45,508 nucleotides of DNA, from NCBI GenBank assembly GCA_027622655.1, contig JAQBYI010000027.1, positions 1-45,508 on the forward strand, written 5' to 3'. Source of the stretch: Gemmatimonadota bacterium (lineage in GTDB: Bacteria; Gemmatimonadota; Gemmatimonadetes; Gemmatimonadales; Gemmatimonadaceae). The notes beneath the pieces were generated by a model that saw only the letters and a list, made by a program, of their open reading frames with translations, was not told where the DNA came from and did no database searches. Shown here one piece after another: positions 71 to 25,454 of the stretch. The number at the start of each line of letters is the position of its first letter. The first letter of the stretch is position 1. The translations under genes were made by a program, and so were the position numbers.

Positions 71-1334
71 ATGCTCAACGCAACACCGATAGAGGACTTC
101 GCCTTGCTCCGAGTGCTCGTGATCGATGATCAAGAGCACGTACGGAAATGGGTGCGTCGCGTCCTCAAGTCACTCGGTATTACGACAGTGTCCGACGCAG
201 ATGACGGCCAAGCGGCGCTCGCGGCCGTTACAGCACCTGGTGCGGCATTCGACCTCGTGCTGTGTGATCTCAAGATGCCGAACACAGACGGCGTCGAACT
301 CATTCGTGCGTTCTCCTCGATGGGGCTCGAAACAGCGGTAGTTCTCCTGAGCATGGAGCCCGAGCGAGTCCTCGAAACGTCACTGTTGCTCGCAGAGGAA
401 CAGGGCCTTCGGGTCCTTGGCGCGCTTGCGAAGCCGCTGACGGCCGAGAAGCTCGAGCCGCTTTTACGGTCCTGTGTTTTGCCTTCGGGAGCAAGCGCAA
501 GTCCGGCCCATCCGATTGCGCCGGAAACACTCCGCAACGCTCTACGCGACGGTGTCCTGAGCATGGCTTACCAGCCGAAGATTGCGATGTCGACCGGTCA
601 ATTCTCAGGCGTTGAGGCGCTGGCACGGTGGAAACACGGTGGAAACACGGTGGAAACACCCGGAGCACGGACAGGTGGCGCCAGATGTGTTTGTGGCCAT
701 CTGTGAAGATTCAGTCGAACTCGGGGAATGGCTGCTGGAGTTTACCGTGCGCGAGTCGCTCGCCTTTGCTTCGCGCGCGCGCGAAGCCGGCCTCGACATC
801 GACGTTGCCGTGAACGTCCACGCGAAAGCGTTCGACGACCTGGCGCTCCCCGAATGGATTGAGGCAATCGCAGCGGAATCCGGAACGCCGACGAACAAGG
901 TGACGCTCGAGATCACGGGGCGGTCCGTCGCGCAGAACGCCGTGCGCATGCTCGACGTCGCTACGCGCCTCCGCCTCAAGGGGTTCAATCTCGCGATCGA
1001 CGATTTCGGGACGGGCCATTCCGGCCTCTCACAACTCCGCCGGCTTCCGTTCAATCAGCTCAAGATCGATCGGCAGTTCGTCCACGGGTCTGCCGACTCG
1101 ACGTCATCGCGGTCGGTGGTTGAGGCAAGTATCGCGCTTGCGCGCAACCTGCAGATGACATCGGTAGCGGAGGGCGTTCAACGGCGCGGCGATTGGGATC
1201 TGCTCCAGTCACTCGGCTGCGAGGAAATGCAGGGCTTTTTCACGGCGCGCCCGATGACCGAGGATGGCCTCTCGGCTTGGTCGGCCCAGTGGAACCTCCA
1301 CGCGGGCAGCAATCGGAGGCTCGTCAGCCAGTGA
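71..1334 (+). pseudogene. receiver-EAL response regulator (c-di-GMP phosphodiesterase type), interrupted by an 11-bp tandem repeat
   Basis: The N-terminal receiver domain (about residues 12-130) has the acidic pair D19-D20, the phospho-acceptor D66 in CDLKMP and a conserved Lys in LAKP. An EAL domain follows, beginning MAYQPK and reaching GVEALARWKH. There the frame is lost: the reading frame from 71 stops at 706, while the rest of the EAL domain lies in another frame and ends at 1334. The downstream part keeps LEITGR, AIDDFGTG, LKIDRQF, VAEGV and the late Gln in MQGFF, so the residues for Mg binding and c-di-GMP hydrolysis are still encoded. Removing two of three 11-bp units at 627-659 restores one 413-aa protein of RocR/VieA-like layout. 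The family hydrolyses c-di-GMP under phosphorylation control. Here the product is either a truncated receiver with a 26-aa nonsense tail or, in cells with another copy number, a full enzyme. The start ATG at 71 has no clear ribosome binding site. Confidence 0.85.
627..659. repeat. 11-bp tandem repeat, three perfect copies, inside the EAL coding region
   Basis: The unit is GGTGGAAACAC at 627-637, 638-648 and 649-659, with a 3-base partial copy (CAC) just before it. One copy encodes the expected EAL-domain residues RWKH and leads straight into PEHGQVAPD. Two extra copies add 22 bases, which shifts the frame by one. Copy numbers of 1, 4 or 7 keep the frame open; 2 or 3 close it. Confidence 0.95.
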
Positions 1335-1365: not shown

Positions 1366-1749
1366 ATGACCGCGCACTCGCATCACCGGAAAATAATTCT
1401 CGTCATCGACGACGAGCCAAGCATCAGAAAAATCATCGACCGCCTCCTCAAGCAGTTCGGCTACGAAACCTTGCTCGCGGCCAACGGGGCTGACGGCATC
1501 CGCTTGTTCGACGCGAACGCCCCGGATATCGCGCTCGTGCTCCTCGACTGGCATCTTCCGGCGATGTCCGGTGGCGCGATCCTCGCGGCATTACTGGAAC
1601 GTCGGCCGGACCTCCGCGTCATCGTCGTTACCGGCGGCTCCGAGGCAACCACCGACGAGCAAGCAACATCCGACTCGGTGTCGATTCTGCTCAAGCCTTT
1701 CACGCCTACCGAACTGATGATGACGGTCAGGACCGTCCTCGGGGCCTGA
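1366..1749 (+). CDS. stand-alone receiver domain protein (CheY-like)
   Basis: This 127-aa protein is a single response-regulator receiver domain with no output domain. Visible marks are the acidic pair in LVIDDEP (D15-D16), the phospho-acceptor D61 in LLDWHLP, the Thr-like switch position in VVTGGS and the conserved Lys in LLKPF. I chose the ATG at 1366 because it lies directly before the first beta strand; a longer reading frame upstream overlaps the EAL gene and adds no domain. It follows the receiver-EAL gene by 31 bases, so the two probably share a transcript and perhaps a sensor kinase, which is not in the window. It converges with zapA, leaving only three bases between the stops. Confidence 0.9.
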   Translation: MTAHSHHRKIILVIDDEPSIRKIIDRLLKQFGYETLLAANGADGIRLFDANAPDIALVLLDWHLPAMSGGAILAALLERRPDLRVIVVTGGSEATTDEQATSDSVSILLKPFTPTELMMTVRTVLGA

Positions 1750-1752
1750 TCG

Positions 1753-2055
1753 TCAGCTGCTCTCGCCCCGCTTTCCGGGTGGGAGCCAGCGCCGCAGTTC
1801 GCTCGACAGCGAGTCCATCGAGCCCGCGAGCGACTCGCGCCCCGAGCGCTCACGAAACAAGTCGTCCGTGATTGAGAGCGCGGCGAGAATCGCCGCCTTG
1901 TGCGACTCAACCACCGACGCGTTGCCCATCACCTCGCGAATAGCCTTGTCCACGTGCGCCGCGACGGCGCGGGTATGATCGGGGGACGCATCAGTGCGGA
2001 TCGTATACTCTTCGCCGCAGATCGTCACGCGCGTCGAGTGCTTGGAAGCGGTCAC
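1753..2055 (-). CDS. zapA: cell division protein ZapA
   Basis: A 100-aa ZapA homologue, a cytoplasmic protein that bundles FtsZ filaments at the division ring. The N-terminal part (VTICGEEYTIRTD) is the compact beta-strand head typical of the family, followed by helices with the AAHVDKAIREVM and AILAALSITDDLF stretches that form the coiled-coil dimer. The start is GTG at 2055 and overlaps the upstream stop codon as GTGA, which indicates translational coupling to the coiled-coil gene. In many bacteria zapA lies just downstream of pheT, as here. Confidence 0.9.
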   Translation of the reverse strand: MTASKHSTRVTICGEEYTIRTDASPDHTRAVAAHVDKAIREVMGNASVVESHKAAILAALSITDDLFRERSGRESLAGSMDSLSSELRRWLPPGKRGESS

Positions 2056-2342
2056 TTTCCGCCCTCTTCGTGCTGCTGGCGAAGGAATCGCACCCGATCA
2101 AGCACCTTGCCGGTGCGCTCCGACGCGCCCGCGAGCCGTGAGCGCAGTTTCGCGTTCTCGGCTTCCAACTGCGCGACGCGTTCTTCAGCGGCCGCGTCGC
2201 CGCCTCCGCCCTTCGTCGCGATCGCCTGCAGTCGCGCCTCGGCGGCATGCGCGCGTTTCCGAAACCCCGAGAGCTCCTCACCGAGATTTCGCACGAGCTT
2301 CTCAAGTGCGGTGAATGCGCGTGTATCAGGCGGTTCTTGCAC
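2052..2342 (-). CDS. small coiled-coil protein between pheT and zapA (ZapB-like candidate)
   Basis: A protein of about 96 aa, nearly all helical and charged, with leucine heptads in RVAQLEAENAKLRSRL that predict a coiled coil. No enzyme motif is present. The GTG at 2342 is preferred because a GGAG lies 10 bases before it; a TTG at 2351 is also possible but sits directly on that GGAG. It overlaps the 3' end of pheT by 17 bases and overlaps zapA by 4. Position and coiled-coil form suggest a division-ring partner of ZapA, but that is inference from context only. Confidence 0.7.
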   Translation of the reverse strand: MQEPPDTRAFTALEKLVRNLGEELSGFRKRAHAAEARLQAIATKGGGGDAAAEERVAQLEAENAKLRSRLAGASERTGKVLDRVRFLRQQHEEGGK

Positions 2343-4782
2343 GGACTCCAATCTCCTTATCGAGCGTCTTGAGAAGCTGCGACCGGCGCCCGTCGATTTC
2401 CTTGTCCCGTAGAGTGCGGTCCGGGTGCCGGAACGTCAATCGCCACGCAAGCGAGCGCGTGCCCGCCGGAATACCGTCACCACGAAACTCATCGAACAAC
2501 AATACCGCCTCGAGTAGTTCGCCGGCGGACCCTCGAATCGTCTGCTCGACTTGAGCAGCGGACACGGCGTCCGGCACAATCAGCGCCAGATCGAACACGG
2601 CGGCGGGCGTCACCGCGAGCCGTGCGTAGCGCACCGGCTGCGGGCGCGGCGCAGCATCACTGGCCCTGGAATAGTCGTGTGCGCCGCGGGCGGCGACGGC
2701 AGCGGCCGGCATCTTGCCCAGCGTCAACTCGACGCCGAACGCCGGCGCCGCCCAAACCGGCGCGTCCAGCGTGATCTCGCGAACGTGTCCGCGCACCGTT
2801 CCTTCCACTGACAAGGACCAGAGCGCTCCCGTTTCTCCCGCACGCGCCTCGGCGCTCAGCTCGGCGCTCAGCTCGGCGCGCGCGCCCGGCCACGCCGTGC
2901 GCACAACCAACTCAGCAAGCTCCTTCGCGTCCCACGCATCGAACGCCGGCGGGTCCGGCTCCGTGAAATGCCGCGGGCGCCGCGCGCCCATAACAAGCGC
3001 GCCAACCCGGATCTCTTCGCTCAACGCGCCGTTCGCCTCGGCAACGAACGCCGTGCCTATTTCGAACATCCGCACGTCGCCCTGCATGCGCGACAGATTG
3101 TATTCGGCGCGACCGGCAAGCGTGGTCAGGATCGAATCGCGGAGAAATGGCTCATCGTCGCCAAGCGGATTGCGCACGCGAACGAGCGCCGCCGCAGCGT
3201 CGGTCGACGCGGTGAACGGAAGCGGCCGCACTTCGAATAGTCCGTGCGCCACCAGCGCGTCGCGCACACGCCGCCCAACGACGTGCATCGGGTGGTCAGG
3301 TACGCTGCTGGGCCGCGATCCGGTGATGACGTCCGGCAGGCGGTCGTAACCGCGGAGGCGCGCCACTTCCTCGATGAGGTCCACGTCAAGCGTCACATCG
3401 TGCCGCCACGACGGTGCGGTGACCTGAAACGCGTCGCCCGACTTGTGCACCGCGAAGCCAATGGACGTCAGCAATCGCGCGGTCTCGTCGGCCGACACCT
3501 CGTCCCCAAGCAGGCGCGACACGCGCTCCGGCCTGAGTGAGATCGGATCGTGCGCCGGCGGTTCGACGCCGACGTTCACCGCCTCTTCAATCGTGCCTCC
3601 GGCGACCATGGCGATCAACCCGGCTGCGATGGGAGCTACCCGCGGCACCGACTTGTCGTTGATACCGCGTTCGAAGCGATAGCTCGCGTCGGTCGCGATT
3701 CCGAGGTGACGCCGACCAGCGCGAACCTGCTTGGGCGAGAATGTCGCGACTTCGAGCAGAATGTCGGTCGTGCCCTCCGTCACTTCACTTGCCTGCCCGC
3801 CCATAATCCCTGCAAGTGCCGTCGGACGTTCTGCATCGGCGATCACGAGTACGTCGTTGCTGAGCACACGCGCCGTTCCGTCGAGCGTGGTCAGCGTCTC
3901 GCCGCTCCGCGCACGACGAACGACGATCGATGAACCGCCAATCTTGGCGAGGTCAAACGCGTGCACCGGTTGGCCAAAGCCGTGGAGGATGTAGTTCGTG
4001 GCATCGACAACATTGTTGATCGACCGCGCGCCCACTGACTCAATGCGTCGCTTGAGCCAATCCGGGCTCGGCCCGACGGTAACCCCTCGAATCACGATCG
4101 CGCAGTAATGTGGGCAATCGGCCGTGCTTTCGAGCCGCACGGACACGCCGCGGCCCGCGGCCTCCGATTCGCCCTCTGCCGGCTTGGGCGTCGCCGGAAG
4201 GTCAGCAAGCTCGGGCGGCATCTGCTTGGCCACCCCGGTCAGAGCCGTCAGCTCATAGGCGAAGCCCTGATGCGACAGCAAGTCGGGCCGGTTCGGCAAC
4301 ACGTCCACAACGAGCCGCGCATCGGACAGGTCGAGCACGTCGAGCAAGCGCGTGCCGGTTGCCGCGTCCGTGGTGAGCTCAAGAATCCCGTCGTGATCGT
4401 CACCAAGCCCGAGTTCACTCGGCGAGCAGAGCATGCCGTTCGACACGAACCCACGGATCTTTCGTTTCTCAATGAGCAATCCGCCGGGCATCGTCGTGCC
4501 GCTGCGTGCAAACGGGTACTTCGCACCCACGGTCACGTTTGGCGCGCCGCAGACCACCTCGATCAGTTCGCCGCTGCCGTCGTCCACCTTGTTGAACGAC
4601 AACCGCGTATCGGGAATCTTTTCGCTCTCCACGACCCGTGCCACGACGAACGACTCAAGCTCGGCGCCGACGGCTTCGAATCCTTCCACGGTCGCGACGT
4701 GCGCAGTCAGCAATTCGCGCACCGCGGCGGCATCGAGCGCGTGCGGGACGAACGCCTTCAGCCACTCATGCGAAATGTTCAT
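2326..4782 (-). CDS. pheT: phenylalanine--tRNA ligase beta subunit
   Basis: The 818-aa beta subunit of the (alpha-beta)2 phenylalanyl-tRNA synthetase. It begins MNISHEWLKAFV, as is standard for PheT. An OB-fold tRNA-binding domain follows (about residues 40-150, with VVCGAPNV), then the B3/B4 editing domain, the B5 domain, a catalytic-like core and a C-terminal FDX-ACB anticodon-binding domain (from about residue 720, with VPDAVSAAQVEQ and TFRHPDRTLRDKEI). Length is normal. Near residues 640-655 a 12-bp duplication gives AELSAELSAEA, one of several short tandem repeats in this window. The gene starts seven bases after pheS, so the two subunits are co-translated from one message. Confidence 0.97.
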   Translation of the reverse strand: MNISHEWLKAFVPHALDAAAVRELLTAHVATVEGFEAVGAELESFVVARVVESEKIPDTRLSFNKVDDGSGELIEVVCGAPNVTVGAKYPFARSGTTMPGGLLIEKRKIRGFVSNGMLCSPSELGLGDDHDGILELTTDAATGTRLLDVLDLSDARLVVDVLPNRPDLLSHQGFAYELTALTGVAKQMPPELADLPATPKPAEGESEAAGRGVSVRLESTADCPHYCAIVIRGVTVGPSPDWLKRRIESVGARSINNVVDATNYILHGFGQPVHAFDLAKIGGSSIVVRRARSGETLTTLDGTARVLSNDVLVIADAERPTALAGIMGGQASEVTEGTTDILLEVATFSPKQVRAGRRHLGIATDASYRFERGINDKSVPRVAPIAAGLIAMVAGGTIEEAVNVGVEPPAHDPISLRPERVSRLLGDEVSADETARLLTSIGFAVHKSGDAFQVTAPSWRHDVTLDVDLIEEVARLRGYDRLPDVITGSRPSSVPDHPMHVVGRRVRDALVAHGLFEVRPLPFTASTDAAAALVRVRNPLGDDEPFLRDSILTTLAGRAEYNLSRMQGDVRMFEIGTAFVAEANGALSEEIRVGALVMGARRPRHFTEPDPPAFDAWDAKELAELVVRTAWPGARAELSAELSAEARAGETGALWSLSVEGTVRGHVREITLDAPVWAAPAFGVELTLGKMPAAAVAARGAHDYSRASDAAPRPQPVRYARLAVTPAAVFDLALIVPDAVSAAQVEQTIRGSAGELLEAVLLFDEFRGDGIPAGTRSLAWRLTFRHPDRTLRDKEIDGRRSQLLKTLDKEIGVRARTA

Positions 4783-4789
4783 GCGCGCC

Positions 4790-5833
4790 TCATCGAGCGA
4801 ACTGGCTCAGGAAGCGAACGTCGGAGTCGTACAGGATGCGAATGTCGGGAATGCCGTGGCGCGCCATGGCCGTGCGCCCGGGTCCCATGCCGAACGCCCA
4901 TCCCGTGTATTTCTCGCTGTCAACGCCAGCCGATTCGAGCACGGACGGATGAACCAGCCCACTGCCAAGGATCTCGATCCACCCCGACTGCTTGCAGACG
5001 CCGCAGCCCGAGCCATCGCAGACGCCGCAGAGCACGTCCATTTCGGCGCTGGGCTCCGTGAACGGAAAGTATGAGGGGCGGAACCGCGTCTTGGTCGCGC
5101 CAAAGAACCGTTTGGCGAAATGCGTCAGCGTAGCCTTGAGGTCGGCGAATGTGATGCCTTCGTCAACCACGAGCCCTTCGACTTGTGCGAACGTCGGAGC
5201 GTGCGAGGCATCGAACGGATCGCGCCGGTGCACGTTTCCCGGGATCAGTACACGAATGGGTGGCGCCCATGCCTGCAGCGTACGCACCTGAACGGGCGAC
5301 GTGTGTGTGCGCAACACGGCGTCGTCGCTGATGTACAGCGTGTCGTGCAGATCCATCGCCGGGTGATCTGGCGGAAAGTTCAGCGCGCCAAAATTGTACC
5401 ACGGCGTTTCAACTTCCGGCCCCAGAGCGATCGTGAATCCGAGTTCGCGAAAGATCTCGATCATCTCGTCGAGCACCTGCGACACGGGGTGCACCGCTCC
5501 CACCCAGGAGCGGCGAGCCGGCATTGACGGGTCCGCGAGGGTGCCGGCCTCGCGCCGGGGACTCAGCTCAGTGCGTCGTGCCTCGAGAGCCGCTTCAACC
5601 CGCAATCGCACTTCGTTGAACGCCTTCCCGGCGGCGCCACGGTCGGCCTTTTCGAGCTGACCAAGTTTCGCGGAGAGGTCCTTCAGCCATCCGTGCGCTC
5701 GCCCCAGGTAAGTCGCGCGCACGGCATCCAGCGCGTCGGCGGAGGCGGCTCCAGTCATTGCCGGCGCGGCCTCGGCCTCAAACGACGCGAGGAGAGCAGT
5801 GAAATCGTGAAGTGTGAGATTCGCGTCGGTCAC
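4790..5833 (-). CDS. pheS: phenylalanine--tRNA ligase alpha subunit
   Basis: The 347-aa catalytic subunit that charges tRNA-Phe. The N-terminal coiled coil (about 1-100) is followed by the class II core with HPVSQVLDEMIEIF (motif 1 region), RTHTSPVQVRTL (motif 2) and AFGMGPGRTAMARHGI (motif 3). A Cys-rich insert, CGVCDGSGCGVC, before the motif-3 region looks like a small zinc knuckle; comparable inserts occur in PheS of several phyla. The start is GTG at 5833, with no good Shine-Dalgarno sequence in the 25 bases before it. A 244-base gap with a strong hairpin separates pheS from rplT, so pheST may have its own promoter. Confidence 0.97.
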   Translation of the reverse strand: MTDANLTLHDFTALLASFEAEAAPAMTGAASADALDAVRATYLGRAHGWLKDLSAKLGQLEKADRGAAGKAFNEVRLRVEAALEARRTELSPRREAGTLADPSMPARRSWVGAVHPVSQVLDEMIEIFRELGFTIALGPEVETPWYNFGALNFPPDHPAMDLHDTLYISDDAVLRTHTSPVQVRTLQAWAPPIRVLIPGNVHRRDPFDASHAPTFAQVEGLVVDEGITFADLKATLTHFAKRFFGATKTRFRPSYFPFTEPSAEMDVLCGVCDGSGCGVCKQSGWIEILGSGLVHPSVLESAGVDSEKYTGWAFGMGPGRTAMARHGIPDIRILYDSDVRFLSQFAR

Positions 5834-9168: not shown

Positions 9169-9795
9169 GTGAAGCACATCGCTGAGTCGACCGTTCGACG
9201 CATGTCGCTCTACCTCCGGTTCCTCGAGGATCACCGGCGGCGGGGAAAAGAAACGATTTCCAGTGGCGACCTCGCGGCGCTTGGCGGAACTACGTCCGCT
9301 CAGGTTCGTAAGGATCTCTCGTTCTTCGGATCGTTCGGAACGCGAGGCCTGGGCTATTCGGTGGCCGCACTGTCGCATCGCATTCGCGAGATCCTCGGAC
9401 TCGAGCGCGAGTGGCGTGTGATCATAATAGGCGCCGGGAAGATCGGCGCCGCGCTCGCACAGTACCGCGGATTCGCGGAACGCGGCTTCCACGTCATAGG
9501 CGTTTACGACGTCGATCGAGCACAGATCGGCAAGTCGTTGAACGGCTTGGTGATTCAGGATGAGAGCGCAATGGACGCCGACATTGCGCGTCTCAAGCCG
9601 GACATAGCGCTGATCGCCGTGCCTGCCGAAGCGGCCCAGGCGCTCCTGGACCGAGTTGCCAAGGCAGGCGTTCGCGGCGTTCTCAACTTCGCTCCTACGC
9701 CTCTTCACGCGCCCGAAGGCGTGAAACTGCGTTCGGTGGATATGGCGCTCGAGCTCGAGATCCTCACGTACGCGCTGGTGGGTTCGCAGCACTAG
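9169..9795 (+). CDS. rex: redox-sensing transcriptional repressor Rex
   Basis: A 208-aa Rex protein. The N-terminal winged helix (about 1-80) shows STVRRMSLYLRFLE, LGGTTSAQVRKDLSFFGSFG and the wing G-Y-V-like segment RGLGYSV. A Rossmann domain follows with IIIGAGKIGAAL and an NADH-responsive core (VYDVDRAQIG), then the domain-swap helix at the C terminus. Rex senses the NADH/NAD+ ratio and represses respiratory and fermentative genes when NADH is low. The GTG at 9169 keeps the full first helix. No Shine-Dalgarno is visible, so the transcript may be short-leadered. Autoregulation is indicated by the perfect operator immediately upstream. Confidence 0.96.
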   Translation: MKHIAESTVRRMSLYLRFLEDHRRRGKETISSGDLAALGGTTSAQVRKDLSFFGSFGTRGLGYSVAALSHRIREILGLEREWRVIIIGAGKIGAALAQYRGFAERGFHVIGVYDVDRAQIGKSLNGLVIQDESAMDADIARLKPDIALIAVPAEAAQALLDRVAKAGVRGVLNFAPTPLHAPEGVKLRSVDMALELEILTYALVGSQH

Positions 9796-9818
9796 CGCAG
9801 CACTAGCGCAGCACTAGG
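9786..9818. repeat. 11-bp tandem repeat across the rex stop codon
   Basis: Three copies of GCAGCACTAGC (the last ends in G) at 9786-9796, 9797-9807 and 9808-9818. The rex stop codon TAG is inside the first unit, so the extra copies only lengthen the 3' untranslated gap toward the convergent ksgA. Confidence 0.95.
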
Positions 9819-21118: not shown

Positions 21119-21458
21119 TAGTGAGGAGGTTGAGTGAAGGGTGAGGAGGAGGTCAGGGGTGAGGCCACGCACCCTAACTCCTCACCCCCCAGCGCCATGA
21201 CATCCGCCCGGACCAACTCCGCGACATACGCCGCGTGCCGGTAGGCCGCGTGCCGGTAGGCCGCGTGCCGGTAGGCCGCGTGCCGGTAGGGCCGGTACGC
21301 CGCCAATCGCCAGATCGGATCCCCTGTCAGCTCCACCGGCTGACTTTCGCTCCATCGCGTGAGATCGGGGTCATCGCCGAAATATTGCTCACGTTACCGT
21401 TTTCTCCTCCCTCCTCACTCATCACGTACACCTCACGCATCACTCCCCCACCTCACTA
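21119..21458. repeat. 340-bp repeat element with TA-flanked inverted ends, between rpsU and sdhC
   Basis: Left end TAGTGAGGAGG and right end CCCCCACCTCACTA form an 8-bp perfect terminal inverted repeat (TAGTGAGG / CCTCACTA). The same two ends bound a 113-bp element at 42682-42794, and the right-end string CTCCCCCACCTCACTA is nearly identical (one base differs). Both ends hold runs of GTGAGGAG or CTCCTCAC. The interior carries four 15-bp repeats and no convincing gene. This explains most of the 438-base gap at 21031-21468. Confidence 0.6.
21231..21290. repeat. 15-bp tandem repeat, four perfect copies
   Basis: CCGCGTGCCGGTAGG repeats four times without a mismatch at 21231-21245, 21246-21260, 21261-21275 and 21276-21290; a degenerate piece (GCCGGTACGCCGCC) follows. 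Leftward it could encode YRHAA repeats in a 93-codon frame, but that frame lacks other signs of a gene. Confidence 0.95.
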
Positions 21459-21468: not shown

Positions 21469-22266
21469 ATGACCCATCAACCGCTCCCCATCCAGCGCGG
21501 TTTCGGTGAGACGCTACGCCGCGACCTCTGGTGGGTGTCCCCACTAATCGTCTTTCTCTCGTTCAGCGCGTTTCTGGTGTATGGCACCTGGGCCGCGTTT
21601 CAGAACGCGTACTACACGTACGGGCCGTACCTCTCACCCTTTTATTCGCCTGAGATCTGGGGCGATTCGCACTGGGCGCTTCTCGGCCCGAAGCCGGGGT
21701 GGTGGCCGACCTACGTTCCGTTCTCGCCGGCCCTGCTGATCCTGCCAATTCCCGGCCTCTTCCGCTTCACCTGCTACTACTATCGGGGCGCATACTACAA
21801 GGGTTTCTGGGCCGATCCGGCCAACTGCGCAGTCGGTGAAGCACGCAAAGTGTACCGCGGCGAAAAGCCGATGCCCAATGCGCTGCAGAACCTGCACCGC
21901 TATTCGATGTACTTGGTGCTGGTCGTCATGGCGTTTCTCGCGTACGACGCGTGGGAGGCCTTCTGGTGGCTCGACATGGGCGGCAACGTGCACTTCGGCG
22001 CCGGCCTCGGCACCGTGATCATGTGGGCGAACCTCGTTCTGCTTTCCGGATACACATTCGGATGTCACTCGGTCCGTCACATCGTCGGCGGATTCAAGGA
22101 CCGCTTGAGCGGGCAACCGATCCGTGCCGCCTGCTACTCGGGATGCTCGAGGCTCAACGCGAAACACGGTAGTTGGGCTCGATGGTCCATGTTCAGCGTC
22201 GGATTCACCGACATCTACATCCGCCTTTGCGCGATGGGATACATCACCGACTGGAGAATCTTCTAA
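21469..22266 (+). CDS. sdhC: succinate dehydrogenase membrane anchor / cytochrome b subunit
   Basis: A 265-aa integral membrane protein with about five hydrophobic segments (near 22-45, 83-105, 143-165, 172-205 and a weaker one near 235). Aromatic-rich loops and several conserved His residues (HRYSMYLVLV, HFGAGLG, CHSVRHIVGG) could bind haem and quinone. The family is the single large anchor seen in actinobacterial and related respiratory complexes rather than the short SdhC/SdhD pair. It lies directly upstream of sdhA with no gap (stop TAA, then ATG). Electrons from succinate would pass through it to menaquinone. The start lacks a Shine-Dalgarno and may be leaderless. Confidence 0.85.
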   Translation: MTHQPLPIQRGFGETLRRDLWWVSPLIVFLSFSAFLVYGTWAAFQNAYYTYGPYLSPFYSPEIWGDSHWALLGPKPGWWPTYVPFSPALLILPIPGLFRFTCYYYRGAYYKGFWADPANCAVGEARKVYRGEKPMPNALQNLHRYSMYLVLVVMAFLAYDAWEAFWWLDMGGNVHFGAGLGTVIMWANLVLLSGYTFGCHSVRHIVGGFKDRLSGQPIRAACYSGCSRLNAKHGSWARWSMFSVGFTDIYIRLCAMGYITDWRIF

Positions 22267-24891: not shown

Positions 24892-25428
24892 GTGTTGAGG
24901 CGCTTTGCTCTCATCCCCCTATTGACCTTCGCCGTCACCGCCTGTTCGTCGGGGTCCGACGCGGCCAATGCGTCGAACGGCGCGGCCAACGCCGTCGATA
25001 CCACTGCTGCACTGCGTGCCGTCGCGCGCGCGGGCGGGCGGGTCTCCCTCGACTCGGCGACTACGTTCGAGGCGCAGACTCGCGATCCCGTGTTGTCGTC
25101 GGTGGTCAAGCCCGGCGACATTATCGAGGGCGCCGTGACGGTCCCGGTGTTTACGGCGGAGGGAAACATCGTGATAGACGCACTGTCGCCGTTGAAGCTG
25201 CGCGTGGTGCGCATTGAGCGCCGCTCCGACCCGGCCGCTACGTCCGGACGTGTGGAGTTCGCAGTCGATTCGCTCGTGATGCGCGACCGAACGATTGCGC
25301 TGAGCGCGACGGTTGGCCCTGTTGCCAGTGTGGTCATGGCGAACGGTATCGTTCTGGTTGACCGCGGCACGAGATTCACCGTCACGCTCACGAAGCGCCT
25401 CTCGATAGTGCAGCCAAAGTACGACTGA
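24892..25428 (+). CDS. putative lipoprotein of unknown function
   Basis: A 178-aa protein with a short signal peptide ending in the lipobox FAVTAC (Cys18), then a Ser/Ala/Asn-rich linker and a beta-rich domain of about 120 residues (DIIEGAVTVPVF, LRVVRIERR, GTRFTVTLTKRL). I do not recognise the family; the pattern resembles small periplasmic domains that set a default range for a property. The start is GTG at 24892, 7 bases after GGAGGAG. It follows sdhB by 19 bases and may be co-transcribed. A 13-bp tandem repeat begins at its stop codon. Confidence 0.8.
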   Translation: MLRRFALIPLLTFAVTACSSGSDAANASNGAANAVDTTAALRAVARAGGRVSLDSATTFEAQTRDPVLSSVVKPGDIIEGAVTVPVFTAEGNIVIDALSPLKLRVVRIERRSDPAATSGRVEFAVDSLVMRDRTIALSATVGPVASVVMANGIVLVDRGTRFTVTLTKRLSIVQPKYD

Positions 25429-25454
25429 AACGTACGACTGAAACGTACGACTGA
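25419..25454. repeat. 13-bp tandem repeat at the lipoprotein stop codon
   Basis: GTACGACTGAAAC at 25419-25431 and 25432-25444, then a partial copy GTACGACTGA at 25445-25454. The first unit contains the last codons and the stop TGA. Confidence 0.95.

Follow-up and report, generated by a model that had tools for sequence, protein, structure and literature searches.

A short tandem expansion interrupts a receiver-EAL gene, probably a young pseudogene, in an array-rich Gemmatimonadota genome

Phosphodiesterases of the RocR type, whose solved relatives include RocR (3sy8) and the MorA and MucR EAL structures, carry a receiver domain followed by an EAL domain. The Gemmatimonadota gene described here has the same layout; in contrast to the RocR type, however, its frame is interrupted behind the EAL motif and glycine stands in place of the loop-6 glutamate. 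A switch at such a locus would vary c-di-GMP turnover between cells, as does the phase-variable c-di-GMP phosphodiesterase PdcB of Clostridioides difficile. PdcB is switched by DNA inversion, a site-specific recombination that turns its promoter around, and both of its states have been observed (PMC9286219), whereas a single state is seen here. In pneumococcal cap3A, cap8E and tts, a tandem duplication within the coding frame inactivates the gene and can be lost exactly, as is possible in principle here; both phases have been observed in those genes (cited in PMC4243769), in contrast to the one sequence, with three units and a second substitution, found at the present locus. Simple-sequence contingency loci, for example the tetranucleotide repeats of Haemophilus influenzae (PMC2651432), likewise set the reading frame by unit number; unlike the array here, their arrays are built of more numerous and shorter units and differ from strain to strain. 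Promoter tandem repeats of Mycobacterium tuberculosis vary within populations, with more than one state present in the reads (PMC12817950), whereas this locus offers one state. The literature terms that we used returned no report of an 11-bp or other tandem-repeat switch of an EAL gene. According to a survey of frame transitions, a break confined to a single species is mostly an indel mutation or an error, and a repeat at the break point marks phase variation (PMC3711429). The present gene carries both marks, and its relatives, together with a second lesion, tilt the choice toward indel mutation or error.

The window, that is, the whole stretch of DNA analysed, is an entire contig of 45,508 bases (C31) from a 3.14 Mb genome assembled in 115 contigs with a contamination estimate of 4.2%; comparison with Rfam gave no match in the window. 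Immediately 3' of the EAL signature, three perfect units of GGTGGAAACAC stand in tandem, a pattern that arose in none of 100 dinucleotide-preserving shuffles and that TRF reports with a period of 11 and a match of 100% (Table 1). A two-unit GGTGGAAACAC pattern has no second site in the 3.14 Mb genome. The array contains no stop codon in any forward frame; its 22 surplus bases shift the frame, and the upstream frame then closes at a TGA some way downstream. The product of the upstream frame consists of the receiver and an EAL stub, the remainder of the EAL domain following in another frame. The two halves jointly cover positions 3-236 of the EAL profile (PF00563), and the EAL signature residues (EAL, N, ExxE, DDFG, K, E and Q) are spread over both frames, with G in place of the second E of ExxE. 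As in contingency genes, the frame contains a tandem array whose unit length (11 bp, three times) is not divisible by 3.

Table 1. Features at and around the interrupted receiver-EAL gene (coordinates in the window)
Feature	Position	Strand	Remarks
Upstream open frame	71-706	+	Response_reg 3.7e-17; EAL 5.9e-8, profile 3-47; includes GVEALARW; TGA at 704-706
11-bp perfect tandem array	624-659	+	3.3 copies: leading CAC and three whole GGTGGAAACAC units (627-659)
Downstream open frame	582-1334	+	EAL profile 35-236; lacks the glutamate of the EAL motif
Loop-6 substitution	918-920	+	GGG (Gly) for the conserved second Glu of LExTE; second lesion
RR2, intact stand-alone receiver protein	1366-1749	+	also 3' of the receiver-EAL gene in G010 and G001
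ZapA (1753-2055), pheT (2326-4782), pheS (4790-5833)	1753-5833	-	synteny with the intact genes in G010 and G001

These observations bear out the core of the original prediction, namely three perfect units exactly where the frame is lost (confirmed by both the shuffles and TRF) and a frame broken by tandem expansion, which is supported. The 413-residue receiver-EAL protein proposed for a single unit agrees with the codon count, since (1334-71+1-22)/3 gives 414 codons, or 413 amino acids and a stop. The further proposal that one, four or seven copies would turn the gene on is correct as frame arithmetic and extends no further than arithmetic, four copies placing 11 additional residues behind the EAL motif. 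Two compositional features of this end of the contig may be recorded separately. The receiver half (71-634) has a low coding score under the hexamer model, although its receiver domain is conserved, and the G+C of positions 1-400 is 0.57 against a genome sample average of 0.64.

Homologues were sought in 61 genomes with the downstream part as the query. Those from the same genus share 53-76% identity over the EAL part, and most have open frames of about 400-535 codons. Judged by this gene, the closest relative in the sets searched is G010, which has about 77% identity over the EAL part and is also the best of the GTDB r220 matches (JARIET010000087), among which there is no same-species record. 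In both G010 and G001 the receiver-EAL gene is followed by RR2, zapA, pheT and pheS, as in this genome, and this shared synteny identifies their genes as positional orthologues; G010 additionally encodes a PAS-histidine kinase divergently, upstream of its receiver-EAL gene. Two of the 17 congeners lack a close homologue (G003 gave no match and G008 only weak EAL matches), which argues that the gene can be lost.

The motif DNA was read at 11 places in 10 same-genus loci (L004-L008, L011-L013, L015 twice and L016). At each of them the motif is single, for example ALARWRHP or ALVRWKHP, and the array is absent; an insertion behind the EAL motif occurs in no relative read. It follows that the array arose on the branch leading to this genome. 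The comparison with sister genomes, which had been recommended as a check on reversible slipped-strand switching, speaks against that claim, because every same-genus relative whose motif was read has a single motif, an open frame at the site and no array. With positional orthologues intact in relatives and at least one disabling lesion here, the gene looks as a pseudogene is expected to look.

A second departure lies further downstream. The second glutamate of LExTE is Glu in 67 of 67 aligned related EAL domains and Gly in this gene, whose other residues agree with the consensus at all remaining positions of 21 near-invariant columns. The downstream catalytic residues had been described as intact, a description that fails at this position and holds for the others; decay elsewhere in the gene, which the original prediction had named as evidence against itself, is to that extent present. 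Mutation at the corresponding position of RocR reportedly impairs the protein. Two paralogues encoded on another contig of the same genome (C50) have Asp and Glu, respectively, at the loop-6 site, and the one with Asp indicates that the site is not absolutely fixed. The Asp-bearing one, L216 (G000:C50:25896-26543), is a second receiver-EAL protein in this genome; it reads LEISD, with Asp at the loop-6 glutamate, and its signature is otherwise largely complete. The residue is known as the loop-6 stabilising glutamate (PMC12900916), and in an M. tuberculosis protein E484, which we infer to occupy the column of the present glycine, bonds two glycines of loop 6 (PMC2994820). The single exchange may impair this protein. 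Array and loop-6 glycine aside, the gene is in good order, and a switch caught in its off state would look alike.

How long ago the frame was lost can be approached through relative-rate counts. With G010 or G001 as the comparison, amino-acid changes special to this genome stand at 13:12, 11:14 and 17:26 in the upstream half and at 17:13, 10:17 and 16:17 in the downstream half, counts that allow a coarse statement only, synonymous sites being near saturation. Neither half has an excess of amino-acid change in this genome by these counts, and the gene has no further stop or frame loss, which together argue that the break is young; at this coarse level the gene would have changed as a functional gene does over most of the branch. 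Its age is poorly bounded, since even the nearest relative has diverged as far as stated above. Of the suggestion that the break is recent or reversible, the first part stands on these grounds, and reversible switching is not supported.

The array belongs to a genome that is rich in such structures. Perfect arrays with a period of 5-40 and at least 2.5 copies were counted in a sample of 1.395 Mb of the 3.14 Mb genome, where there are 130 of them (93 per Mb), mainly with periods of 9-15; a third-order Markov control of equal length yielded none. The density is about 2-6 times that of congeners, in which it amounts to 17 per Mb in G014 (300 kb), 28 in G010 (70 kb, two arrays), 43 in G001 (253 kb) and 25 in G004 (40 kb, one array), while mixed bacteria have 12 arrays per Mb (848 kb). 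When genes were called with a hexamer gene finder, the period proved divisible by 3 in 59 of the 60 arrays inside called genes versus 24 of the 47 between genes (Fisher P 2e-9), and the single exception inside a called gene lies in a weak ORF without a Pfam match. This triplet bias indicates that frame-breaking arrays are normally removed from genes by selection. All non-triplet arrays were checked for coding sequence on either side, and within the 1.395 Mb sample no conserved domain other than that of the receiver-EAL gene was found to be split by an array. Five other candidates for frame-splitting arrays were rejected, each being located between separate genes: L157 (MoeA and a methyltransferase), L165 (a lyase and an unknown), L143 (a GHMP kinase and a nucleotidyl transferase), L163 (EF-Tu and S10) and L141 (the end of ftsH).

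Loss of mismatch repair was considered as a cause of the array excess and discarded, mutS and mutL being full length; recJ is full length as well, so that the excess is not explained by loss of any of the three. Near contig ends, at a distance of no more than about 70 bases, there are seven to eight arrays (L041, L043, L046, L047, L051, L052, L056 and L143), above the density expectation, which suggests that longer or variable arrays broke the assembly there. Three more arrays were noted in the window itself. At 9785-9817, three perfect units of CGCAGCACTAG overlap the stop codon of a rex-like gene (9169-9795), and because each CGCAGCACTAG unit contains TAG, the number of units would hardly alter the end of the rex-like protein. 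At 21230-21290, a perfect array of 4.1 copies of GCCGCGTGCCGGTAG is intergenic, upstream of a gene at 21469, and at 25419-25454 an array of 2.8 copies of a 13-bp unit overlaps the 3' end of an ORF (24922-25428).

We consider that the locus is probably a young receiver-EAL pseudogene produced when a tandem array expanded in a genome rich in such arrays; on the best reading, slippage recently cost a dispensable gene its function, a loss that could potentially be reversed. A CAC flanks the unit on both sides and forms a 3-bp direct repeat at a distance of 11 bp, which could have seeded the first slippage and led from one unit to two and then to three. The 22 added bases bring the TGA into frame, so that the cell would produce no more than a receiver and an EAL stub; the remaining EAL part, devoid of the EAL glutamate, would be unable to act alone. 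The exchange of the loop-6 glutamate may have come before or after the break. Such a break would be tolerated if the gene is dispensable, as the congeners without a close copy and the retention of other EAL proteins suggest. The genome has five GGDEF matches, three EAL genes (two besides this one) and one PilZ; the two other EAL proteins are those encoded at C50, one of which has all signature motifs. Retention of GGDEF, other EAL and PilZ proteins indicates that c-di-GMP signalling persists. Reversal by the loss of two units is physically possible, and the open-frame product would then keep the loop-6 glycine.

A phase-variable switch, in which slipped-strand mispairing changes how many 11-bp units are present, the phosphodiesterase is made with one (or four, or seven) units and c-di-GMP varies between cells, appears unlikely. 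In its favour, the three units are identical and placed exactly at the frame break, the break is young, the genome has many tandem arrays and c-di-GMP machinery, and PdcB provides a precedent for a phase-variable enzyme of this activity. Three tandem units can moreover be mutation hot spots, as are the 4-bp triplet of lacI and the 6-bp triplet of Salmonella mutL. The switch is nevertheless weakened by the relatives, none of which has the array where read, by the presence of three units only, by the glycine that the open-frame product would retain and by the commonness of short arrays in this genome, whose general mutational tendency accounts for this one. Turning on by gain would insert 11 residues behind the EAL motif, and turning on by loss would take the removal of two units.

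Still less probable, in our judgement, is an artefact of assembly or consensus, whereby most of the population has one unit and the three-unit path was chosen or created during metagenome assembly. The assembly is in 115 contigs with a contamination estimate of 4.2%, the gene begins at position 71 of its contig, and the arrays near contig ends show that repeats disturb this assembly. Yet a 36-bp array is far below the usual short-read length and is normally assembled correctly, the usual error is collapse rather than expansion, and the many other arrays of the genome respect gene frames, as real DNA would. That both halves are used, through programmed frameshifting or separate translation, is very improbable: neither frame has other stops and TTG (582) or GTG (675) could start the downstream one, but a +1 shift would be required, the array contains no shift-prone site recognised by eye, relatives have one continuous frame where read, and the downstream part without the EAL glutamate cannot alone be a normal phosphodiesterase.

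A wider idea, which we regard as a long shot, is that in this free-living freshwater Gemmatimonadota lineage the excess of arrays, mostly with 9-15 bp units, is a general source of reversible variation, the receiver-EAL gene being one such locus, where each cell's c-di-GMP turnover depends on its number of units. As it stands, the locus adds one example to the genes that short tandem expansions have inactivated. If several unit numbers were to occur in one population, it would become a case of slippage-driven c-di-GMP switching in an uncultured lineage, away from the pathogens on which most work on phase variation centres. Of greater interest is a by-product of the analysis, the array-rich genome, which poses a testable question about mutation in an organism in which mutS, mutL and recJ are all present.
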